Positions 2,282-27,165 of a stretch of 42,553 nt of DNA are shown here, one piece after another. Every line of letters begins with the position of its first letter. The stretch's first letter is position 1. A model generated the notes under the pieces. That model searched no databases. It was not told the origin of the DNA and saw only the letters and a list, made by a program, of their open reading frames with translations. The stretch lies in contig CAMPAL010000008.1 in assembly GCA_946631855.1 (NCBI GenBank), positions 1 to 42,553 of the forward strand, written 5' to 3'. The translations under genes and the position numbers were made by a program. This DNA is from an uncultured Treponema sp. (GTDB lineage: Bacteria > Spirochaetota > Spirochaetia > Treponematales > Treponemataceae).

Positions 2282-3934
2282 TTATTTCTGATAATTTGTA
2301 ACAGCTTCTGTAATTAATGGAATCAGCTGTTTTTTTCTAGAAACAACACCCTGGAGATAGAAAACTTTATCTTCCATCTTTGGCCAGCTTATAAATGGTT
2401 CGAACTTTGGATCGTAATCTATTAAAAGAATACTGGAAAGTTTTGTAATATCAGTAACAAGCAGACAAGAGAAGAGAGCCTTGTGAGCACGACGTTCAAG
2501 AGAAAGCTCCTTCATAAAGTCGGCCTTGCGGTCCATAACTTCCTTAGGATTTCCAACTTCAATCTGACTTGCGGTATATGAAACCTTACCTTCAACATAT
2601 TCCTTCATATCCTGGTGGATTAAATCAGAAGCTTCACGTCCCTTGATATTACTTCCTGCAATCAGAATTTCATTTCCCAACTGCTTGTAGTCTAAATCTG
2701 TAATTCCAGAAAGATATTCCACCATATCCCGGTCTACATCTGTTGTTGTGGCAGACTGCAAAATCAAAGTATCAGACAAAATTCCGCAGAGTAAAAGTGG
2801 AGCAATATCTTTTGGAATTGGAATTTTATATTCTTTATAAAGACCTGCAATCTGAGTAGCTGTAGAACCAACTGGACGATTGATAAAGGTAATTGGATTT
2901 TTTGTTGGGATTGCACCAATTCTGTGGTGGTCAATTACTTCCTGAATCACATAATGTTCAACACCTTCCACCGCCTGAGTTATTTCATTGTGGTCCACAA
3001 GAATAACTTCGATATTTGGTTCCTTCATCAAATCATGTTCAGAAATAATACCAATTACCTTGTTTTCCTCATCCACCACCGGAAGGTACTTACAATGAGC
3101 ATCTTTAAGAATATCCTTAATTTTTGCAACCGAATCGTTTATTGCAACAGTTTTAATTTCTGCATCACCCATAACACTTACAGGCATAGAATAAGCAATA
3201 AGCATAGATGTAGGTGATGTAGAATAAGGGCTGACAATTACAGAAACTCCATTTTTTTCTGCAAGCTCCCTTAATTCTTTATCAATAACACATCCACTGG
3301 TTGTAATAAGGAGTTTTACTTTATGTTCAATACAAAGCTTGTGAATATCATCTCTATCCGAAGCAATAACAATAATATTTTCAGAAGAATGAGCTTCAAG
3401 TCTTTTTACAAAAGTCTCAACTGATGATGAACCAACATGAATTGAAGCCTTAAAAGTCTTATCTCCATCATTTACAATAAGAGGCTGAGCATTTAAAGTT
3501 TTCAAAATAAGATTGATTGAAGTTGTAAATGAATGCTTTTTTTCAGGATTGAGGATTGTAAGAACCCCTTTTGCAAATCCAGAGTAATGCAAAAGTGAAA
3601 GATATTTTCCGTTCTTATCAACAACTGGCATAACTCTGATTTCTGTTTTTTCCATTCGTCCAATGGCTTCCCAGACAGAAACATCTTCCTGTACAGTTTC
3701 AACATTATCCTGCATAAAATATTTTACCTTTGGAATAAGGTCTGGAATATATTCTGGTTTTGGAAGTCCAAATTTTTCAAAAATATAACGGGTCTGAGGA
3801 TTCAAATGACCTGCACGGGCAGCGATGTATTCTGGATGACCCAGCAAATTCTTTAATCTTGCATAACCAACAGCTGAAACAACAGCATCTGTGTCGGGAT
3901 TTTTGTGTCCAATAATATAAACTGTCTTTTTCAT
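2282..3934 (-). CDS. Putative manganese-dependent inorganic pyrophosphatase with CBS and DRTGG domains
   Basis: Family II (DHH) pyrophosphatase, splitting PPi to phosphate in the cytoplasm. With the start at 3934 it is 550 residues. The DHH catalytic domain is interrupted: GHKNPDTD at 9-16; a first CBS about 70-125; a DRTGG-like region about 135-245; a second CBS about 250-305; then VDHNE (313-317), DHHRIG (335-340) and SDT (387-389). The DHHA2 domain ends with the substrate-binding SRKKQ (532-536). CBS/DRTGG pyrophosphatases are known to be regulated by adenine nucleotides, including diadenosine polyphosphates. The in-frame GTG/ATG extension to 3973 runs into the promoter. No good ribosome site precedes 3934, and a -10 box ends 7 bases upstream, so the message may be leaderless. 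It diverges from galK. Confidence 0.93.
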   Translation of the reverse strand: MKKTVYIIGHKNPDTDAVVSAVGYARLKNLLGHPEYIAARAGHLNPQTRYIFEKFGLPKPEYIPDLIPKVKYFMQDNVETVQEDVSVWEAIGRMEKTEIRVMPVVDKNGKYLSLLHYSGFAKGVLTILNPEKKHSFTTSINLILKTLNAQPLIVNDGDKTFKASIHVGSSSVETFVKRLEAHSSENIIVIASDRDDIHKLCIEHKVKLLITTSGCVIDKELRELAEKNGVSVIVSPYSTSPTSMLIAYSMPVSVMGDAEIKTVAINDSVAKIKDILKDAHCKYLPVVDEENKVIGIISEHDLMKEPNIEVILVDHNEITQAVEGVEHYVIQEVIDHHRIGAIPTKNPITFINRPVGSTATQIAGLYKEYKIPIPKDIAPLLLCGILSDTLILQSATTTDVDRDMVEYLSGITDLDYKQLGNEILIAGSNIKGREASDLIHQDMKEYVEGKVSYTASQIEVGNPKEVMDRKADFMKELSLERRAHKALFSCLLVTDITKLSSILLIDYDPKFEPFISWPKMEDKVFYLQGVVSRKKQLIPLITEAVTNYQK

Positions 3935-3941
3935 ATAAAAT

Positions 3942-3970
3942 ATCTTACCCTTTCCCTTGGAATTGTTCAA
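3942..3970 (-). promoter_or_regulatory. Promoter of the pyrophosphatase gene, leaderless geometry
   Basis: On the minus strand, TTGAAC (3965-3970), a 17-base spacer and TAAGAT (3942-3947). Only 7 bases separate the -10 box from ATG 3934, so transcription would begin at or next to the start codon. The box overlaps the galK promoter on the other strand. Confidence 0.5.
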
Positions 3971-6805: not shown

Positions 6806-6835
6806 CCAAAGAGTGATAATGGGACATTTTTTATA

Positions 6836-6920
6836 CTCTGTCCACTTTGCCTGAGATATCAGCTTTAATAGCCTTAACCCTTCGGCGCTTCATAAGGATT
6901 TATGAAGACTCTCCAGAGAA
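6836..6920 (-). ncRNA. Glycine riboswitch aptamer (gcvT element), apparently single
   Basis: Reading down the minus strand: CTCTGGAGAG (6919-6910), a variable arm, GCGCCGAAGGGTTAAGGC (about 6887-6870), and CTCAGGCAAAGTGGACAGAG (about 6855-6836). These are the conserved blocks of the glycine aptamer. Only one full aptamer is visible; a short CTCTTTGGAGAG follows and may be a ghost second aptamer, as described for singlet glycine riboswitches. The terminator and symporter gene follow directly. Glycine may stabilise a form without the terminator, giving induction, or the reverse; the sign cannot be settled by eye. Confidence 0.85.
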
Positions 6921-6994
6921 TTACATGTACAAAACACGTTGTAAATGTAACAGTAAAAAAATACCAAAAAATTGAATTGTTATCAAGACAATTA

Positions 6995-7656: not shown

Positions 7657-8214
7657 TTATGAATTATTCTCAACGAATTTTCTTAAAGTCAATCTTGCAC
7701 TTTCAAAAGCCAAAGGCAGTTTTTCTACATCCTCTAAAGATGCAACTTTACAAGCCTGTAAGCCAGAAACTTCACTCTCCTGAGCTTTGAGACTGGAAAT
7801 AAAATCATCAATATCCTTAAAGTTTTCTGGCAAAGCTACAGTAAAAAATATGTCACAGGTTTTATATACAATGTTTTTATACGGATATGTATTAGGATTT
7901 GTACAAAGAAATTTTACAGCTTTTTCATCAATATCAACACCAATTTCTTCTCTGCATTCACGAACAATGGCTGATTCTGCACTTTCATCAAAATCGACAA
8001 AACCACCAGGAAGTGCAATAAATCCTTTTTTTGGTTCTTTTGCTCTTACTTCAAAAAGAACATTTTTATCTTTATCATAAATTATAATTCCAACGGCAGC
8101 GGCAACATTATTATAAAGATCGAATCCACAATCCCGGCAAATCCACTTACGAAGTCCAGGATTTTCAATATTCTTACTGCCACACATTGGACACATATTA
8201 AAAGCATTTGTCAT
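7657..8214 (-). CDS. Nudix hydrolase with N-terminal zinc ribbon
   Basis: Cytoplasmic pyrophosphohydrolase acting on a nucleoside diphosphate derivative; the substrate is unknown. An N-terminal zinc ribbon (CPMCG, then CRDCG about 20 residues on) precedes a Nudix fold with the box GGFVDFDESAESAIVRECREEIG, which has the required RE..EE residues. ATG 8214 overlaps the TGA of the ECF gene as ATGA and has GAGGTG 6 bases upstream, so I prefer it to a GTG at 8223. Translation is probably coupled to the ECF gene. The zinc ribbon resembles that of NudC-type enzymes, but the NudC signature downstream of the box was not recognised. Confidence 0.9.
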   Translation of the reverse strand: MTNAFNMCPMCGSKNIENPGLRKWICRDCGFDLYNNVAAAVGIIIYDKDKNVLFEVRAKEPKKGFIALPGGFVDFDESAESAIVRECREEIGVDIDEKAVKFLCTNPNTYPYKNIVYKTCDIFFTVALPENFKDIDDFISSLKAQESEVSGLQACKVASLEDVEKLPLAFESARLTLRKFVENNS

Positions 8215-10355
8215 TTGAAACACCTCATTGTGATTGCATCAGCCAGAGCTTCAGATTTTTTTATAGACTGAATGATTAAAGGTACCATTAAAGGTATGAT
8301 TGCCTTAATTTTTGCAAAAGTTCCCCTGGCCCTGCCCAGTCCCCCTCTTATTATCTGAGTTTTGATGATTGAAGAAGCTTCGTCCACCAGCACAGGAATA
8401 AATCTGAAAATAATTTCAATTATAAGTATAAGATAACGGACTGGAATTTTAATCCATTTTAACGGAGTTAAAAGAATATTCAAACCATCAATCAGGTCGT
8501 GCTCAGGAGTAGAAATAAAAAATGCAGAAATACAGGCAAGAGAAGAATAAGTTCTTAAAATAGTGGCAATACAAAACTTTATTTTTGAAGGAGTAATTGT
8601 AAACCATTTCCAGTTTGTATATCTTACTTCGTCTGCTAAAGGTGCATGGAAAATCAACTGGAAGACTGAAAAAAACAAGAGGAAAGGCAGGATTTTAAGC
8701 CAGGCTATACATAAATTTTTAAAACTGAATCCGCAAAGTAAACAGTAAATCAGAGAAAGGCCAAGAAAACCTGCACATAATTCAAGAGGCCTTAAAGCAA
8801 GTGAAAATACGAACATTGTCAGAAATAAGAGGATTCTTAAAACTGCCGGTATTTTTTCCACCAGCGATTTGTTTTTTTTCTTTGAACCGGAAAGGCCTGC
8901 CGAAGTATTCCTTAAAGAAGAAAGCATCGAGACGGTGGAAGGAACTTCTACCTGTGAAAAAGACTCGCTTTCTTTTGCCTGAGATAAGGCACAGCTGTCA
9001 TTTACAATTTTTCCTGCCTCAATCTGAATTTCCCTGTCAGCAAAATCAGCTTCATCTCTTTTGTGTGTACTAAAAAGGATTGTTTTTCCTTCTGAGGCAA
9101 GTTTTCTGAACATATTTAAAACTTCGTTTCTTGCACGGCTATCAAGCCCTGCTGTAGGTTCATCAAACAAAAGTACATCTGCATCTAAAGCAAGAATTCC
9201 TGCAATTGAAAGTCGTCTCTGTTCACCACCTGACAGGGCAAAGGTTTTCCTTTCCGCAAAAGTTTCAAACGGAAGAGCCGCATCATCCATCGATTTTTTT
9301 ACAAGTTCTTTTAAAACCTTACCACTTTTCCCCTGATTTCTTGGACCAAATGCTACATCATCTGCGGCAAATGCTTCAAAAAGAGCAGCCTTTGCATTCT
9401 GAAGTGCTAAAACAGGCCGTCCTTCCGCTTTTATACTTACACCAGGAGTTTCTTCCGCTTTCAGAAGGCCTGCACACAATTCAAGAATGGTAGACTTTCC
9501 GGCTCCAGAAGGGCCTGTAAGCGCGGTGATACTTCCTTTGTAAAGATCAAAATTGATATTTGAAACTCCATGTTTTTTTTCAGAAGAATCATAAGAAAAA
9601 TTTAACTCTCTTACCGACAAAGTTTTTTCTTTATTTTCACGTTGAGCAAGGACAGATTTATCACAAACAGGAAGAGGCTTGCCTTCTATTCTGAAAAGAT
9701 TATCAGGATTTTCAAAAAATGCCCGCTTAGTTCCGTAAAAGAAAACCTTCCCGTTTTCCATTCCAATTACAGTATCCGCTTCTTTTACAACCTCAATATC
9801 ATGAGTGATTTGGATAATAGTATTTCCACATTTGTGCCAGTATTTTACAAAATCAAGAATTTCCCTTCTGGAAACAGGATCTAGCATAGAAATAGCTTCA
9901 TCAAGAATTAAAATTTCTGGTCTTAAAGCAATTACTCCGCTAAGAGCAATTTTCTGAGTCTGACCAAGAGAAAGTGCCGAACTTGAAGAAGAGGCTCTGT
10001 CCAGCATATCAACAATATTTAATGATTCTATAGTTCTTAATTCAACTTCACTTTTAGAAAGCCCAAGATTTTGAGGACCAAAAGCAGTATCCCGGGAAAC
10101 AAGTCCGCTCACCAGCTGATCTTTTGGATGCTGAAAAACAATTCCTATCTGCTGATTTTTTTCTACAAGAATTTCCCCAGAATCAGGATTTTCCAGGCCA
10201 CACAAAAGTCTCGCAATCGTACTCTTTCCGCTTCCGTTATAACCAATAATTGCGGTGTAGGCACCTTTTTCAATGGCGAAAGAAACGTCATCCACCGCGT
10301 TACGTTTACTCTGAGGATATTTAAATATTAGATTTTTAACAGAAATTACGCTCAA
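8211..10355 (-). CDS. Fused ECF energy-coupling module: EcfA-EcfA-EcfT in one protein
   Basis: 714 residues combining all three subunits of an energy-coupling-factor transporter. ATPase 1: Walker A GYNGSGKST (38-46), signature LSLGQ (129-133), Walker B ILILDE (148-153), H185. ATPase 2: Walker A GPSGAGKST (281-289), LSGGE (374-378), VLLFDE (394-399), H431. After a Ser/Lys-rich linker (about 465-500), residues 500-714 are EcfT, with several membrane helices and a coupling-helix ARG (676-678). The first signature is off-consensus (Leu for Gly), so the two sites may be unequal. The module energises vitamin or metal uptake with a separate S-component; none is adjacent. The start is TTG without a ribosome site, about 10 bases from a -10 box. 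Confidence 0.92.
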   Translation of the reverse strand: MSVISVKNLIFKYPQSKRNAVDDVSFAIEKGAYTAIIGYNGSGKSTIARLLCGLENPDSGEILVEKNQQIGIVFQHPKDQLVSGLVSRDTAFGPQNLGLSKSEVELRTIESLNIVDMLDRASSSSSALSLGQTQKIALSGVIALRPEILILDEAISMLDPVSRREILDFVKYWHKCGNTIIQITHDIEVVKEADTVIGMENGKVFFYGTKRAFFENPDNLFRIEGKPLPVCDKSVLAQRENKEKTLSVRELNFSYDSSEKKHGVSNINFDLYKGSITALTGPSGAGKSTILELCAGLLKAEETPGVSIKAEGRPVLALQNAKAALFEAFAADDVAFGPRNQGKSGKVLKELVKKSMDDAALPFETFAERKTFALSGGEQRRLSIAGILALDADVLLFDEPTAGLDSRARNEVLNMFRKLASEGKTILFSTHKRDEADFADREIQIEAGKIVNDSCALSQAKESESFSQVEVPSTVSMLSSLRNTSAGLSGSKKKNKSLVEKIPAVLRILLFLTMFVFSLALRPLELCAGFLGLSLIYCLLCGFSFKNLCIAWLKILPFLLFFSVFQLIFHAPLADEVRYTNWKWFTITPSKIKFCIATILRTYSSLACISAFFISTPEHDLIDGLNILLTPLKWIKIPVRYLILIIEIIFRFIPVLVDEASSIIKTQIIRGGLGRARGTFAKIKAIIPLMVPLIIQSIKKSEALADAITMRCFK

Positions 10356-10364
10356 TTTTTGGGA

Positions 10365-10393
10365 ATTATAATCTACATTTTGACAGTTGTCTA
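10365..10393 (-). promoter_or_regulatory. Promoter of the ECF-Nudix unit
   Basis: On the minus strand, TAGACA (10388-10393), a 17-base spacer and TATAAT (10365-10370). The start codon TTG (10355) is only 9 bases beyond, so the leader is almost absent. The -35 lies inside the inverted repeat 10389-10401 shared with the divergent lacI promoter. Confidence 0.65.
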
Positions 10394-10409
10394 CTTTAGA
10401 CGTTATACT
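10380..10409 (+). promoter_or_regulatory. Promoter of the second lacI gene, leaderless geometry
   Basis: TTGACA (10380-10385), an 18-base spacer and TATACT (10404-10409). ATG 10417 follows after 7 bases, so the transcript would start at the A of the start codon or one base away. Confidence 0.7.
10389..10401. promoter_or_regulatory. Inverted-repeat operator shared by two divergent promoters
   Basis: GTCTA-CTT-TAGAC lies in the spacer of the lacI promoter and over the -35 of the ECF promoter. A repressor bound here would occlude both, so the adjacent LacI protein is the natural candidate. That assignment is inferred from position. Confidence 0.55.
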
Positions 10410-10416
10410 AATTCCA

Positions 10417-11454
10417 ATGATTACGCTTAAAGAAATTGCTCAACAATGTAATGTTTCTATCGCAACTGTATCCAATATTTTGAATGGAAAAGCAAAAGTT
10501 TCGAACGAGACTAAAGAAAGAGTTTTACAGATTATAAAAGAAACCGGCTATAAACCAAACTACATGGCTCGGCTTTTAAGGGCTAACAAAACCAGAACAA
10601 TTGGCGTCCTTGTTGATGATCTTACAGAATTCTCTTCTCCATTGATTGTTGATGGAATAATGACATATCTGGAAGAACACAATTACAAAACAATTCTTGA
10701 AAATCTTCGTTTCTATTCAAAATGGGGACGTGACTGGTATGAAAATGCAGATTATAAAAAGTCTGTTTACCAGGCTTTCCAGGAATTTTCTTCAATAAAG
10801 GTGGATGGAATCATTTATGTTTCAGGCCACGAAAGAAATATCAACATTATTCCAGAAGAATTCAATATTCCTACCGTAATTAGTTATGCCTTTTCTGACA
10901 GTCAAAACTTTTCTTCTGTTCTTATTGATGATTTTGACGGGGCTTACAAACTGACTGAATATCTTATAAAAAAAGGACACAAAAAGATTGCCCTGGTTCA
11001 GGGAATTGAAGGAAACATTCATACCGAAGAAAGACTAAGAGGTTTTAAAGCCGCTTTAAAAGACTATAAGCTGGAGGCAGATCCAAATCTTATGTTTCCA
11101 GGCATCTGGTTTCCTGAATCTGGTTATGAGGCCTGCAAAAAACTGATAGAATCAAAAAAAGATTTTTCTGCCATCTTCTGTTTCAACGACCTTATGGCAG
11201 CAGGCGTATACAAATATCTGACAGAAAATAATCTGCAGGTTGGAAAAGACATTTCTGTTGTTGGTTTTGATAACCGTACAATTGCAGAAGAACTTATTCC
11301 ATCCCTCACAACAATGGAAATTCCATTAAAAGAAGTTGGAATTTCTACAGCGAAAGAACTGCTTGATCAAATGACATCCGAAGAAGACTTCCAAAAACAG
11401 AAAATTTACATCAAATGTAACCTGATTGAAAGAGCTTCGGTTTCAAATAAATAA
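10417..11454 (+). CDS. LacI-family transcriptional regulator
   Basis: Repressor of 346 residues with the N-terminal helix-turn-helix LKEIAQQCNVSIATVSNILNG, hinge YKPNYMARLLRAN, and a C-terminal effector domain of the ribose-binding type (TRTIGVLVDD, DFSAIFCFNDLMAAGVYKYL, VGFDNRTIAEELIPSLTTM). ATG 10417 is chosen because the helix-turn-helix begins directly after it; the in-frame TTG at 10387 lies within the promoter. It diverges from the ECF gene, with the operator between them. An aminopeptidase follows within 21 bases and may be cotranscribed. The effector is unknown; control of an ECF system by a LacI protein is unusual. Confidence 0.9.
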   Translation: MITLKEIAQQCNVSIATVSNILNGKAKVSNETKERVLQIIKETGYKPNYMARLLRANKTRTIGVLVDDLTEFSSPLIVDGIMTYLEEHNYKTILENLRFYSKWGRDWYENADYKKSVYQAFQEFSSIKVDGIIYVSGHERNINIIPEEFNIPTVISYAFSDSQNFSSVLIDDFDGAYKLTEYLIKKGHKKIALVQGIEGNIHTEERLRGFKAALKDYKLEADPNLMFPGIWFPESGYEACKKLIESKKDFSAIFCFNDLMAAGVYKYLTENNLQVGKDISVVGFDNRTIAEELIPSLTTMEIPLKEVGISTAKELLDQMTSEEDFQKQKIYIKCNLIERASVSNK

Positions 11455-12898: not shown

Positions 12899-13840
12899 TT
12901 ATTTTTTAGACATCAAAACATCGTAAATACGGTCAAAATCTTTTCTTGTATCAAAACCAATTACAATCGAACCTTTATTTATATCACCTTTTAAACTTAC
13001 GTCTCTGGTTCCAAAAATATTTCTTAATTCCTGTTCAAACTGTAAAATATCAGCATCTTTTTTTACTTTTGGTTTTTCTTCTTTAGCTTTTTTGGCAGCC
13101 CTTCCACCACCGTTGTATTCTTCTGCAAGCGCTTCTGCTTCGCGAACAGAAAGACCATTTCCAACAATCTTTCCGTACATAACGCGCATATCAGCATCAT
13201 TCTTAACCATAAGAAGGGCACGGGCATGCCCAGAAGTTATCTGTCCGCTGGAAAGGGAACGCTGAATATCTTCTGGAAGTTTTAACAAACGAATTGAATT
13301 GGCAACTGTAGCACGAGCTTTTCCGACTCTTTTTGCAACTTCTTCCTGAGTCAAATCGCCCATCTGAATTAAATTATAATAAGCAGTAGCTTCTTCTATT
13401 GGATTTAAGTCGGCACGCTGAATATTTTCAATAAGTGCCATTTCAAGTTTCTGCTGTTCATCAAACTTTCTAAGCTGAACAGGAACCTGAGTAAGACCAG
13501 CCATTTTTGCGGCACGAGTACGGCGTTCACCTGCAATAATGTAGAATGTACCATCACCGGCATCTTCAATAATGATTGGCTGAAGAATTCCATTCATCTT
13601 GATAGAATCACAAAGTTCTTCAAGCTTTTTAGGATCAAACTCTATACGAGGCTGTTTTGGATTAGGACGTAAAAGAGCTGGATCAATCCACAAACTGCCA
13701 TCAGCTTCAGAAGTAATAGCAGAAGGTAAATCTCTTGTATCAGTTTTTGTTGCACCAGTAACAATTGCCACTTCTTCAGAGGCTCTGGCATTATCACCTA
13801 ATAAGGCACCAAGTCCTTTTCCTAATCCATTTTTAGCCAC
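12899..13840 (-). CDS. parB: Chromosome-partitioning protein ParB
   Basis: CTP-dependent DNA clamp that loads at parS sites and works with ParA in chromosome segregation. 313 residues. It starts with the usual AKNGLGKGLGALLGD; the ParB/Srx CTPase domain has PNPKQPRIEFD and GERRTRAAKMAG; the helix-turn-helix is TQEEVAKRVGKARATVANSIRLLKLP; the C-terminus is a dimerisation domain. Its start overlaps the parA stop by 8 bases, so translation is probably coupled. I found no consensus parS site in the window. Confidence 0.96.
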   Translation of the reverse strand: MAKNGLGKGLGALLGDNARASEEVAIVTGATKTDTRDLPSAITSEADGSLWIDPALLRPNPKQPRIEFDPKKLEELCDSIKMNGILQPIIIEDAGDGTFYIIAGERRTRAAKMAGLTQVPVQLRKFDEQQKLEMALIENIQRADLNPIEEATAYYNLIQMGDLTQEEVAKRVGKARATVANSIRLLKLPEDIQRSLSSGQITSGHARALLMVKNDADMRVMYGKIVGNGLSVREAEALAEEYNGGGRAAKKAKEEKPKVKKDADILQFEQELRNIFGTRDVSLKGDINKGSIVIGFDTRKDFDRIYDVLMSKK

Positions 13841-14588
13841 GACGGATCACCTCTTCTGCTAATTTAGCATAACTGCGGGCACCCACACAGGATGGATCAT
13901 ACTTACAAATTGGGAGTCCGTGAGATGGAGCTTCAGAAAGTCTGACATTTCTTGGGATAATTGTATTGAAAACTACATCTTTGAAATAAGATTTAACCTG
14001 CATAACAACGTCCTGAGCAAGACGAGTACGGGAATCATACATTGTAAAGAAAATTCCACCAATCTTAAGACTTGGATTAATACCTTTCTGAACCTTCTGT
14101 ACAGTCTGCAAAAGAAGAGTAATTCCTTCGAGAGCGAAATATTCACACTGCATTGGAACCAGAACAGAATCTGCAGCTGCAAGTCCATTCAAAGTTAAAA
14201 TTCCAAGTGATGGAGGACAGTCAATCAAAATATAATCATATTTGTCTTTTAAAGGTGCAAGTGCATTTTTAAGATAGAACTCTCTATCCTTCTGATCTGC
14301 AAGTTCGATTGAAACACCAGACAAATCAATTGAGGCACTAATAGCATCAAGGCCTTCTACAGGAGTATGCTTTACACAATCTTCGGCAGAAACCTGTTCT
14401 GCAAGCAACTCATAAACTGTAGGCTTATCTTTAGAAACACCTACACCACTAGACATATTTCCCTGGGAGTCGAAATCGACCAAAAGAACTTTTTTACCAG
14501 CGAGAGCGATGTAAGCTCCAATATTAATAGCAGAAGTTGTTTTACCAACACCACCTTTCTGATTTACAAATACAATACACTTTCCCAT
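13833..14588 (-). CDS. parA: Chromosome-partitioning ATPase ParA (Soj-like)
   Basis: Deviant Walker ATPase of 251 residues that binds the nucleoid and drives ParB-parS complexes apart. P-loop KGGVGKTTSAINI (11-23), the VDFDSQGN block, and ILIDCPPSLGILTLNGL. It is the short Soj type without an N-terminal DNA-binding extension. No ribosome site precedes ATG 14588, and a TATATT (14596-14601) ends 7 bases upstream, so this may be another leaderless message, although the -35 is poor. It diverges from the methyltransferase gene. Confidence 0.96.
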   Translation of the reverse strand: MGKCIVFVNQKGGVGKTTSAINIGAYIALAGKKVLLVDFDSQGNMSSGVGVSKDKPTVYELLAEQVSAEDCVKHTPVEGLDAISASIDLSGVSIELADQKDREFYLKNALAPLKDKYDYILIDCPPSLGILTLNGLAAADSVLVPMQCEYFALEGITLLLQTVQKVQKGINPSLKIGGIFFTMYDSRTRLAQDVVMQVKSYFKDVVFNTIIPRNVRLSEAPSHGLPICKYDPSCVGARSYAKLAEEVIRRG

Positions 14589-14644
14589 AAAGTCTAATAT
14601 ATCATTTTTAGTTAAAATAGTATACTCTGAAGATAAGAGGTCAT

Positions 14645-22352: not shown

Positions 22353-22838
22353 CTAAGCCTGTACACCTTCACGACGGTCACACTCGTCTTCGACATAAAC
22401 GATTTCGTTCTCTTTATAAGTTTTTAAAACAAAATTTGTCTTAGTAGAACGAACGCCTTCCAAAGTTGAAAGTTTTTCACTTACAAACAAAGCAACATCT
22501 TTAAGATTATCACCTTCAATCAGAACCTTAAGATCATATCCGCCACTCATAAGATAAAGAGATTTTACCTGTGGGAAGCGGTAGATTCTTTCTGCAAGAG
22601 CATCAAATCCGTGTTCTCTCTGAGGCTGAACCTGAATCTGAATTTCCGCTACAACTTTGTCCCGCGCGACCGCATCTTTCTCTGGATTAACAACCGCTAT
22701 ATACTTGAGAATAACTCCATCATCTTCAAGCTTTTTAATAATTGCCTGAACTTCTGCTACGCTTTTTTTTGTCATTGCAGCAATATCTTCTGCAGACAGA
22801 CGAGCATTCTGACGTAATAAATCAAGTATTTCTTCCAT
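22353..22838 (-). CDS. Lrp/AsnC-family transcriptional regulator
   Basis: 161 residues: an N-terminal winged helix-turn-helix (ILDLLRQNARLSAEDIAAMTKKSVAEVQAIIKKL is spread over residues 4-37), then an AsnC ligand-binding (RAM) domain with MSGGYDLKVLIEGDNL. ATG 22838 follows GGAGG by 10 bases; the frame extends further to 22889, but that stretch looks non-coding and overlaps the divergent leader. It heads the eight-gene minus-strand run. A short acidic/charged tail (VEDECDRREGVQA) is unusual. Confidence 0.88.
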   Translation of the reverse strand: MEEILDLLRQNARLSAEDIAAMTKKSVAEVQAIIKKLEDDGVILKYIAVVNPEKDAVARDKVVAEIQIQVQPQREHGFDALAERIYRFPQVKSLYLMSGGYDLKVLIEGDNLKDVALFVSEKLSTLEGVRSTKTNFVLKTYKENEIVYVEDECDRREGVQA

Positions 22839-22947
22839 AATTGCTAATCCTCCATGCAAATTTTTATAGAAATTACATTTTACTATCATTCAGACTTTTT
22901 TACAATGAGCCGATTTTTACCTTATTTTCATTTAGAAAAAATATTTC

Positions 22948-22976
22948 TTCACAAAGATAAAATACTCCCCTATAAT
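22948..22976 (+). promoter_or_regulatory. Promoter of the DUF362 gene, leaderless geometry
   Basis: TTCACA (22948-22953), a 17-base spacer and a perfect TATAAT (22971-22976). ATG 22983 begins 6 bases after the -10 box. No ribosome site exists between them. Confidence 0.72.
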
Positions 22977-22982
22977 TCACCT

Positions 22983-24098
22983 ATGACAAATCTTGTAGGT
23001 CTAAAAAAATGCCAGGATTATGACTTTGAAAAGGTCTACCAGGCTATAAAAAAGCTTTTTGAGCTTGTTCCTCCCCCAGATGTAAAGGATAAAGTTGTCC
23101 TTCTTAAACCAAATATTCTTTATCCTAAAAAACCTGAACTTGCCGTTTGTACTCATCCAGTTCTTGTTGGTGCGTCTGTAAAGGCTTTTGTTGAACTTGG
23201 GGCAAAAAAAGTTTACGCGGGAGAATCACCTGCCATTGCGGGTTCAACCAGTGCCGCAAAATTTACTGGAATTTACGATCAGGTAGTAAACAACGGCGGT
23301 GAATGGATTGATTTTAAAGATGCAGAAATTATTGAATGTCCTCAAGGAAAGACTGTAAAACAACTGAATTTTACAACGGCCTTCCGCAAAGCTGATGTAG
23401 TAGTTTCTCTTTCAAAATTGAAGAGCCATCAGCTTATGGCTTACACCGGTGCCATGAAAAATCTTTTTGGGCTGGTAATTGGACTTGAAAAATCACAGAC
23501 CCACTACAGATTCCCTAACAAGAGTGATTTTGCTTCTTACATTACAGATTTAAATATTGCCGCAAACCCTCAGTATGCAATTATGGACGCTATAGTTGGA
23601 ATGGAGGGACCTGGAGGCCCGGGCGGTGGTGATCCTATTCACCTGGGATTTATTGCCGCTTCTGATAACATTCTGGCTTTAGACTGGAAATGTTCTTCTC
23701 TGGTTGGTTACAATCCTCATGAAATTACAAATCTGGAAGATGCCTTAAAACGCGGAATCTGGCTTAAATCTGAAAAAGACATTCAGGTTGTAGGAGAAGA
23801 TGAAGAAAACTGCCGTTCAAGGAACTTCAAAATTGTAAAAGACCCTTCACCAACGCTGCAGAAAATGATGCCACCTATTGTGAATGTTCTGGCAACTTAT
23901 TTCTTTGTAAAAACGCCTCATTTTAACAGCAAAAAATGCGTAAAGTGCGGAAAGTGTATGCAGATCTGCCCTCCAAAAGTTATCCAGATGAAAGGCGAAA
24001 ACGGAACAGCGACATTAACGGATAAAAAGAAGTGCCAGCATTGTTTTTGTTGCCATGAAATATGTCCAAATTCAGCAATCAAACTGCGCAAATTTTAG
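22983..24098 (+). CDS. DUF362-domain protein with C-terminal 2[4Fe-4S] ferredoxin domain
   Basis: About 371 residues. The N-terminal DUF362 domain has KVVLLKPNILYPKKPE, GAKKVYAGESPA, SLSKLKSHQLMAYTGAMKN and MEGPGGPGGGDP. The C-terminal ferredoxin domain has CVKCGKCMQICPP and CQHCFCCHEICP, enough cysteines for two 4Fe-4S clusters. The biochemical role of the family is not established; an electron-transfer or redox function is inferred. ATG 22983 is supported by domain alignment and the promoter; the frame is open back to 22854, but that part reads as non-coding. A decayed second copy of its last 15 codons lies at 24217-24264. Confidence 0.88.
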   Translation: MTNLVGLKKCQDYDFEKVYQAIKKLFELVPPPDVKDKVVLLKPNILYPKKPELAVCTHPVLVGASVKAFVELGAKKVYAGESPAIAGSTSAAKFTGIYDQVVNNGGEWIDFKDAEIIECPQGKTVKQLNFTTAFRKADVVVSLSKLKSHQLMAYTGAMKNLFGLVIGLEKSQTHYRFPNKSDFASYITDLNIAANPQYAIMDAIVGMEGPGGPGGGDPIHLGFIAASDNILALDWKCSSLVGYNPHEITNLEDALKRGIWLKSEKDIQVVGEDEENCRSRNFKIVKDPSPTLQKMMPPIVNVLATYFFVKTPHFNSKKCVKCGKCMQICPPKVIQMKGENGTATLTDKKKCQHCFCCHEICPNSAIKLRKF

Positions 24099-24128: not shown

Positions 24129-24225
24129 TTCATGGCAACTCCAGCCGTTTTACTGGTAAATGCTAAACAAACCCGCTGTCGCAGCTTTGTTTTTAACGCA
24201 TTTGCTATGTTAGGCATGCCATGAA
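24129..24225. repeat. Large imperfect palindromic (stem-loop) element
   Basis: Nested inverted repeats: TTCATGGCA (24129-24137) with TGCCATGAA (24217-24225), AAATGC (24158-24163) with GCATTT (24198-24203), AACAAA (24166-24171) with TTTGTT (24186-24191), and GCTG/CAGC around TCG (24175-24185). It occupies most of the gap between the DUF362 gene and the beta-glucosidase. It could be a REP/MITE-like element or a terminator-like structure, but no T-run follows. Confidence 0.55.
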
Positions 24226-24264
24226 ATCTGTCCGCACAATGCAATTAAACTTCGCAGGTTTTAA
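24217..24264 (+). pseudogene. Decayed 3' end of a second DUF362/ferredoxin gene
   Basis: These 16 codons read CHEICPHNAIKLRRF then stop, against CHEICPNSAIKLRKF at the end of the intact gene (24051-24098). That is 36 of 48 bases and 12 of 15 residues identical, with many differences silent, so the copy evolved as coding sequence before losing its upstream part. A TAG lies 2 codons upstream in frame. Confidence 0.6.
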
Positions 24265-24280
24265 GTAGCTAGATTTTCAT

Positions 24281-24294: not shown

Positions 24295-24381
24295 CTTTTT
24301 GACTTTTTTCATTTTTTTGCCTGCATTATTATATATGCTTAGTTAATTATGTCTAAAACTTATATTTTATCGGGGTTTAAA

Positions 24382-27165
24382 ATGAAAAAGACTTTAGACT
24401 GGAAAGAGTACGAAAAAAAAGCTATTCAAGCTATTGCAGAAGGATGTGTTCTTTTAAAGAATGACAACAATGCACTGCCTTTACAAAAAGGTGCAAAAGT
24501 TTCTGTTTTTGGGCGCATCCAATCATCATATTATAAAAGTGGAACTGGTTCTGGAGGAATGGTAAACGTTTCAAAAGTTTACAACATTGTAGAAGGACTG
24601 GAAGAATCAGGATTTGTATCCATCAACAAAAATCTTCAGGAAATTTATTCTAAATGGGAAGAAGAAAATCCTTATGACGAAGGAATTGGCTGGGGACATG
24701 AACGATGGAGTCAGGATGAAATGCCTCTGACCGAACAGATTGTAGAAACAGCCGCCGCAGAAAGCGATCTTGCCCTTATCATAATTGGTCGTACAGCAGG
24801 TGAAGACAAAGACAACAAAAATGAAGAAGGGGCTTACAAACTTACAGCAGCCGAAAATGATATGCTTGCCAAAGTAAGAAAGGGCTTCAAAACTGTCATT
24901 GTACTTTTGAATGTTGGAAACATAATTGATATGTCTTTTGTTGAAAAATACAATCCGGATGCAGTTATGTATGTATGGCAGGGAGGAATGCTTGGAGGAT
25001 TGGGAACAGCTCAGGTTCTTACCGGAAAAGTTTCTCCATGCGGAAAACTGACTGACACCATTGCAAAAGACATTTCTGATTATCCATCTGACAAAAACTT
25101 TGGAAATCCTGAAAAAAATGTTTATCAGGAAGATATTTTTGTCGGCTATCGTTATTTTGAAACTTTTGCAAAAGATAAAGTTCTCTATCCATTTGGATTT
25201 GGACTTTCTTACACCACCTTCGAACTTTCTGCCCTTCATTCAGAAAACAACTGTGAAAATCAAAATTTATTAATCGACATAAAAGTTGAAAACACCGGTT
25301 GTACTGAAGGAAAAGAAGTTGTTCAGATTTACATTGAAGCACCAAACGGAAAACTGGGAAAAGCTTCAAGAGTTCTGTGTGCTTTCGATAAAACATCAAG
25401 CTTAAAAGCAAACGAGACTGAAAATCTTTCTTTCAAAATCCCATATTATTCTTTTGCATCTTATGATGATTCTGGAGTATGCGGTCATAAATCTGCATGG
25501 ATTCTTGAAGAAGGAACATATTCTGTATATGCAGGAAGCGATGTTCGTTCTGCAAAGAAGTTAATGGACTTTAAGCTGGATGAACTTTTAATCCTCCGCC
25601 AGAGTGAAGAAGCCCTGGCTCCTGTAGAAAGTTTTGAACGTTTCCACAACAAGGGAAATGCAGAACTGGTTTATGAACCAGTACCTTTAAGAAGCAAAAC
25701 AATGGCAAGCCGTCGTGCAGAAAGAATTCCAACTGAAATTCCATCAAATTATAATTCAAACTACAAACTGGAAGATGTAATTTCTGGAAAATGCAGCATT
25801 GAAAACTTTGTAGCTCAATTTACCGACGAAGATTTAGCCTGCATAGTACGCGGAGAAGGAATGGGCTCAAGTCTTGTTACTCCGGGAACAGCATCTGCTT
25901 ATGGTGGAGTTTCACCACGCCTCAGAGAAAAATTCGGAATTGCAGCTGTTTGTTGTGATGACGGTCCTTCTGGAATGAGAATTGACTCCGGAATGAAAGC
26001 CTTTTCTCTTCCAAACGGAACTTCCCTCGCCTGCACATTTAACCGAAAACTGGTGGAAGAACTTTACACCTTTACCGGAATGGAAATGAAAACTAACAAG
26101 GTTGATAACCTGCTTGGACCTGGAATGAACATTCACAGACATCCTCTAAACGGCCGAAACTTTGAATATTTTTCAGAAGACCCATACCTTACAGGAGAAA
26201 TAGGAAAATCTGTTCTCAAAGGACTTCAGTCAGAAGGCGTTACAGGAACTATCAAACACTTCTGCGGAAACAATCAGGAAACAAATCGCCGTGCTCACAA
26301 TTCTGTTATTTCTGAAAGAGCCCTGCGTGAAATCTATCTAAAAGGATTCGAAATTGCTGTAAAAGCTAATGCAGATTCTGTCATGACTACATACGGAATG
26401 GTCAACGGAGTTTATACTGCCGGCGCTTATGATTTGAACACAACAATTCTGAGAAAAGACTGGGGCTTCAACGGTATTGTTATGACAGACTGGTGGGCTA
26501 CTATCAGCGAAGAAAACCTTCCGGAAAATCAGCATAACTTTGCAGGAATGATAAAAGCACAGAACGACCTTTATATGTGCTGTTCTTCGGGTGCAGAAAA
26601 CAAGGATGGTGATAACACTCTCGAAGCCTTAAAAGACGGCCGCCTTACAAAAGCAGAACTTCAGCGAAGTGCAATAAATATCTGCTGCCAGGTAGCAAAA
26701 ACCGAAGCTATGAAACGCCTTCTTGGAACTGCAGATACAATTGAAATTCTGAACCGTCCAAAAAATCCTGATGATATAAACATGGATGACATAGAATTTG
26801 TAGTTTTAAGCAAAGATAAAGAACTTGAACTCGATATGACTTACCAGGAATCTAAGGCAAATACAAATTACACCCTGGCATTCGATGTTTCAGATTTAGG
26901 AACTTATGAAATTTCAATTACAGGAAGTTCGAACCTTGGTGAACTTGCTCAGATTCCTCTTACAATTTTCTTCCAGGGCTTCCCGGTTGCAAGTTTTACC
27001 TTTAACGGAACTGGCGGAAAAGATGTTACAATAACTAAAAAAATGGTCTTCCCAACAAGGTTCTGTGTAAGCAGACTTTACGTTGCTTCAAACGGTTTAA
27101 ACTTAAAATCAGTTAAGCTTAAATACCTGAATGACCATGCAAGCTTTGCAGATTTAGGATTGTAA
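24382..27165 (+). CDS. Beta-glucosidase, GH3, with permuted domain order
   Basis: About 927 residues, no signal peptide, so probably cytoplasmic; it removes terminal glucose (or a related sugar) from imported oligosaccharides. The order is reversed relative to most GH3 enzymes. The C-type domain comes first (LLKNDNNALPLQKGAKVSVFG, about 15-280, with RYFETFAKDKVLYPFGFGLSY), then a fibronectin-III-like domain (about 290-390). The TIM-barrel follows, with LLGPGMNIHRHPLNGRNFEY, KHFCGNNQETNRR and the nucleophile aspartate in VMTDWW (D703). This order is known in Ruminococcus and Butyrivibrio beta-glucosidases. ATG 24382 has GGGG 7 bases upstream; ATG 24349 has no ribosome site. Confidence 0.93.
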   Translation: MKKTLDWKEYEKKAIQAIAEGCVLLKNDNNALPLQKGAKVSVFGRIQSSYYKSGTGSGGMVNVSKVYNIVEGLEESGFVSINKNLQEIYSKWEEENPYDEGIGWGHERWSQDEMPLTEQIVETAAAESDLALIIIGRTAGEDKDNKNEEGAYKLTAAENDMLAKVRKGFKTVIVLLNVGNIIDMSFVEKYNPDAVMYVWQGGMLGGLGTAQVLTGKVSPCGKLTDTIAKDISDYPSDKNFGNPEKNVYQEDIFVGYRYFETFAKDKVLYPFGFGLSYTTFELSALHSENNCENQNLLIDIKVENTGCTEGKEVVQIYIEAPNGKLGKASRVLCAFDKTSSLKANETENLSFKIPYYSFASYDDSGVCGHKSAWILEEGTYSVYAGSDVRSAKKLMDFKLDELLILRQSEEALAPVESFERFHNKGNAELVYEPVPLRSKTMASRRAERIPTEIPSNYNSNYKLEDVISGKCSIENFVAQFTDEDLACIVRGEGMGSSLVTPGTASAYGGVSPRLREKFGIAAVCCDDGPSGMRIDSGMKAFSLPNGTSLACTFNRKLVEELYTFTGMEMKTNKVDNLLGPGMNIHRHPLNGRNFEYFSEDPYLTGEIGKSVLKGLQSEGVTGTIKHFCGNNQETNRRAHNSVISERALREIYLKGFEIAVKANADSVMTTYGMVNGVYTAGAYDLNTTILRKDWGFNGIVMTDWWATISEENLPENQHNFAGMIKAQNDLYMCCSSGAENKDGDNTLEALKDGRLTKAELQRSAINICCQVAKTEAMKRLLGTADTIEILNRPKNPDDINMDDIEFVVLSKDKELELDMTYQESKANTNYTLAFDVSDLGTYEISITGSSNLGELAQIPLTIFFQGFPVASFTFNGTGGKDVTITKKMVFPTRFCVSRLYVASNGLNLKSVKLKYLNDHASFADLGL

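Follow-up and report, generated by a model that had tools for sequence, protein, structure and literature searches.

Leaderless genes have been predicted in spirochaetes before. Zheng et al. (2011) reported genes of this type, termed TA-led, in 6 of 18 Spirochaetes genomes, where they made up 1.8–6.9% of genes with an average of 3.9% (PMC3160421); like the genes described below, these lack a Shine–Dalgarno (SD) sequence and have a TAnnnT/TATAAT box some 12 bases ahead of the start codon, and within an operon leaderlessness is confined to the proximal gene. Leptospira interrogans, likewise a spirochaete with many primary starts 0–10 bases from the start codon, has about 440 transcripts with leaders of less than 10 bases mapped by dRNA-seq (PMC5243855), although it belongs to another spirochaete lineage and its starts were mapped, whereas ours rest on prediction and comparison. 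The leaderless transcriptomes of Mycobacterium tuberculosis and Deinococcus deserti, as they are cited in that study, present leaderless initiation as regular for a sizeable minority of genes, as we propose here, and a paper on the Borrelia ribosome mentions leaderless transcripts as frequent. In Treponema denticola one transcription start has been mapped, 14 bases from its codon (PMC9481697), and no transcription-start map of any Treponema was found in the literature searched. The kind of gene start is therefore already known, being predicted in some Spirochaetes and mapped in Leptospira; what the sequence comparisons below add is a higher estimated share and comparative evidence for gut Treponema.

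The window analysed here, 42,553 bases, is the whole of one contig (C8) of a draft metagenome assembly of an uncultured Treponema (2.65 Mb in 217 contigs, 77% complete, GC 0.35). On the forward strand, a gene for a DUF362 protein with a C-terminal 4Fe-4S domain (22983–24098; Pfam PF04015, 5.5e-49) is preceded by a -35 hexamer, TTCACA (22948–22953), and a -10 hexamer, TATAAT (22971–22976), which together match the consensus at 11 of 12 positions with a spacer of 17, and only six bases (TCACCT) lie between the -10 hexamer and ATG 22983. The preliminary description had read this as a promoter followed by six bases, the ATG and no ribosome site, and both the sequence and our mixture model (leaderless posterior 0.985, SD posterior 0.000) bear it out. 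The gap of six places the TATAAT where TA-led genes have theirs, as a -10 box centred about 10–12 bases before the start codon, and the TTCACA at 17 bases falls within the 16–18 bases typical of sigma-70/sigma-A promoters; the exact TTCACA-17-TATAAT arrangement has one further copy in the 2.65-Mb genome. The divergent gene for an Lrp/AsnC-type regulator (22353–22838, reverse strand) is an SD-led contrast case, with GGAGG before ATG 22838. Judged by the DUF362 protein, the nearest named relative is Treponema sp. UBA4267 (96%); Treponema from the rumen and gut, T. bryantii among them, come next. About 120 bases past the stop codon, at 24219–24267, lies a degenerate repeat of the gene's final ~45 bases (CATGAAATCTGTCCGCACAATGCAATTAAACTTCGCAGGTTTTAAG), apparently a duplication remnant.

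Reading a transcription start and a mode of translation from the observed positions, statistics, -35 spacing and conservation, we infer that this sigma-70/sigma-A type promoter is sited so that RNA polymerase would start at, or 1–2 bases before, the A of the ATG. With the -10 distance established for sigma-70 promoters, the predicted +1 would be that A, preceded by a pyrimidine (T), and a pyrimidine before +1 is a favoured start context. The mRNA would then be translated without SD contact, presumably by 70S ribosomes or by initiator-tRNA-dependent binding of the 5′ AUG; as no SD is available to a leaderless message, the likely route would be for the 70S ribosome or initiator-tRNA complex to bind the 5′ AUG directly. 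Such a gene would represent one of two architectures in this organism, the leaderless one having its -10 box 6–9 bases before the ATG, lacking an SD and being nearly confined to genes that open a transcription unit, and the leadered one having its -10 box 16–25 or more bases upstream together with an SD. That the DUF362 gene has a housekeeping promoter giving a leaderless, SD-free mRNA, and that this is one of two regular architectures, we regard as highly likely.

The preliminary description had also proposed that the same geometry recurs in the window at 3934, 10417 and, less clearly, 14588. Each of these sites does have a -10 box 7 bases before its ATG, and an SD at normal spacing is absent from all four sites, 22983 included. 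The reservation about 14588 did not hold, as this site, where an extended -10 box (TGATATATT; 14596–14604, reverse strand) precedes a ParA/Soj-family gene (13833–14588; posterior 0.978), was among the best supported after comparing relatives. At 10417, the start of a gene for a LacI-family regulator, the promoter is TTGACA-18-TATACT (10380–10409, forward strand; leaderless posterior 0.979). The DHH/CBS/DHHA2 gene (2282–3934) has TTGAAC-17-TAAGAT (3942–3970, reverse strand), and the single-genome model gives it no clear class (leaderless 0.30, SD 0.59) because of AAGGGAAAGGG about 15–25 bases upstream; we favour a leaderless start here, to which the orthologues point.

Between the LacI-family gene and a divergent ABC/CbiQ transporter gene (8211–10355, reverse strand) there are just 61 bases (10355–10417) and two back-to-back promoters. 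The probable partner promoter, TAGACA-17-TATAAT (10365–10393, reverse strand), lies 9 bases before a TTG of the transporter gene, whose start codon is uncertain, and the -35 boxes of the two promoters adjoin inside one dyad, TTGACAGTTGTCTA. Genomes G015 (a congener) and G003 have the same 60-base layout with -10 boxes 7 bases before the ATG on both sides, though the divergent gene differs. The layout is likely to represent two leaderless genes that share a LacI operator. At the soj promoter (14596–14626), a palindrome, AGTATACT, sits roughly at the expected -35 position and is strongly conserved through the genus; it also contains the probable -10 (TATACT, 18 bases before ATG 14645) of a divergent, SD-led methyltransferase gene. 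In one species (G001, locus L215), parS-like half sites TGTGAAACA and TGTTTCAC stand directly before the soj ATG, which suggests that soj may be autoregulated by ParB in that species.

For the genome-wide count we sampled 1.19 Mb of this genome (G000; about 45%), 0.70 Mb of congener G015 and 200 kb each from two other families (G045 and G048), with gene starts picked automatically by coding score alone, blind to upstream signals. First-type genes were those divergent from the previous gene or separated from it by more than 60 bases, the remainder being operon-internal. A three-part mixture model (background, -10 box at gaps of 3–12 bases before the start codon, and SD) was started from the textbook consensus; the 16S gene, sought for a reading of the anti-SD, is absent from the 77%-complete assembly. 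The fit settled on TATAAT at gaps 6–9 and assigned 29% (95% bootstrap 23–35%) of the 451 first-type genes in G000 to the leaderless class and 57% to the SD-led class, estimates that are shares of a signal model and not counts of proven transcripts. In controls the leaderless share was 1.4% for dinucleotide shuffles, 2.3% at 50 bases upstream and ~0% for out-of-frame ATGs, and operon-internal genes gave 5.5%. The check put forward in the preliminary description, a comparison of real with shuffled sequence for boxes 6–8 bases before start codons, was thus strongly positive. A count of genes with posterior >0.8 was dropped as an estimate, and the re-estimated mixture share used instead, because with its prior the shuffles yield about 38 genes of 451, compared with 91 in the real set. 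Some of the model's calls are false. In the start region of the GH3 gene (24349–24384) it gave a leaderless score at ATG 24349, probably a false positive, since ATG 24382, which follows TCGGGG and opens with MKK, looks like the true start.

The replicate in G015 gave 35% leaderless (28–41%). Among all sampled genes the share was ~15% in G000 and 19% in G015 against the average of 3.9% for TA-led genes, which was obtained by another method and is not directly comparable. For the other families the values are suggestive, from 200 kb each (G045 16%, 5–28%; G048 10%, 0–20%), and a free fit on these small sets gave no clean box for G048. M. tuberculosis and D. deserti are high-GC organisms, and the present genome differs from them in its low GC, near-consensus TATAAT and the presence of a -35.

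One alternative is that the box before the DUF362 gene arose by chance in AT-rich DNA and that the real promoter lies further upstream, producing an ordinary SD-less leader on which initiation would depend on S1 or an unstructured AT-rich region. The upstream DNA is AT-rich, in keeping with the genome, and there are weaker promoter-like matches at 22879 and 22899. However, the box peak is position-specific: among the 202 first-type genes that lack an SD, near-consensus boxes at gaps 5–10 number 67, a density of 0.055 per gene and position or about four times the background of 0.013, with the peak at gaps 6 and 7 (19 and 20 boxes), whereas SD-led genes have their box at gaps 16–25 and none above background at gaps 5–10. 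This bimodal position by SD class is as expected from a leaderless and a leadered architecture. The -35 at exactly 17 bases also argues against chance; the 91 strong candidates have a -35 (4 of 6 or better) at spacer 17 in 28 cases, compared with about 4–5 at other spacers, and as the -35 played no part in choosing them, it independently supports their identity as promoters. In addition, the box geometry is kept in orthologues although their remaining upstream DNA is mostly unrelated. Among 26 distinct upstream regions from DUF362 orthologues, 14 carried a box at gap 5–8 (in 1000 shuffles the mean was 3.4 and the maximum 9). The DUF362 gene of the cultured relative Treponema bryantii B25 (L075) has TATAAT six bases before its ATG. 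A box at gap 5–8 was likewise present for the DHH-CBS gene in 18 of 29 (shuffles 3.3), for soj/parA in 18 of 25 (shuffles 4.6) and for the LacI-family gene in 7 of 11 (shuffles 1.7), while galK, a weak control with only seven aligned starts, had an SD in six of them. A chance box is therefore unlikely.

Leaderlessness is not obligatory for DUF362, since an SD is present in 11 of the 26 orthologue upstreams, several times (L006–L008) because the gene follows another. When orthologue pairs of G000 and G015 were compared, both members were leaderless in 11 pairs and both SD-led in 16, while 2 pairs were discordant and 3 ambiguous, so that 27 of 29 classified pairs agree (Fisher p = 4e-6); a further 27 first-type pairs with shifted starts were set aside. 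Other conserved genes of the leaderless class include a CarD-family regulator and a MurB-type gene.

Those shifted pairs show that some starts are in error, and the DUF362 promoter could in principle produce a leader ahead of a more downstream start codon. We consider this very improbable, as no SD-led downstream start is apparent and congeners align to the ATG from the first residue (MTxxVALxKC), which is why we take ATG 22983 as the real start. An in-frame ATG at 22854, from which the frame is open and which would place the box inside the gene, can be set aside as the least credible reading, because conservation among relatives does not reach into the extension and the signal-blind caller stops at 22983.

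Leaderless gene starts, then, clearly appear from the sequence evidence to be regular in this gut Treponema and conserved in related species, as the preliminary description had suggested from a single region; the genome-wide excess, the replicate in G015, the -35 spacing and the conservation among orthologues all support this. Very probably, about three in ten of the genes at the head of a transcription unit would have a message that starts at the start codon itself. We lean slightly towards a broader view, that certain Treponema genes (soj, DHH-CBS, DUF362, CarD, LacI) stably inherit leaderless initiation, which would then not be a by-product of promoter drift, that such initiation extends to ~30% of transcription units, several-fold above earlier spirochaete estimates, and that it allows divergent intergenic regions of 60 bases to accommodate two complete leaderless promoters whose -35 elements adjoin. 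If mapped, such starts would add a well-sampled and partly cultured genus to the bacteria with routine leaderless translation and would correct start-codon and promoter annotation in Treponema; a gene whose start is leaderless or SD-led depending on the species would also offer a system for a direct test of the effect of the switch. Elsewhere in the window, a glycine riboswitch aptamer (Rfam RF00504, 57 bits) is located at 6828–6926 on the reverse strand.
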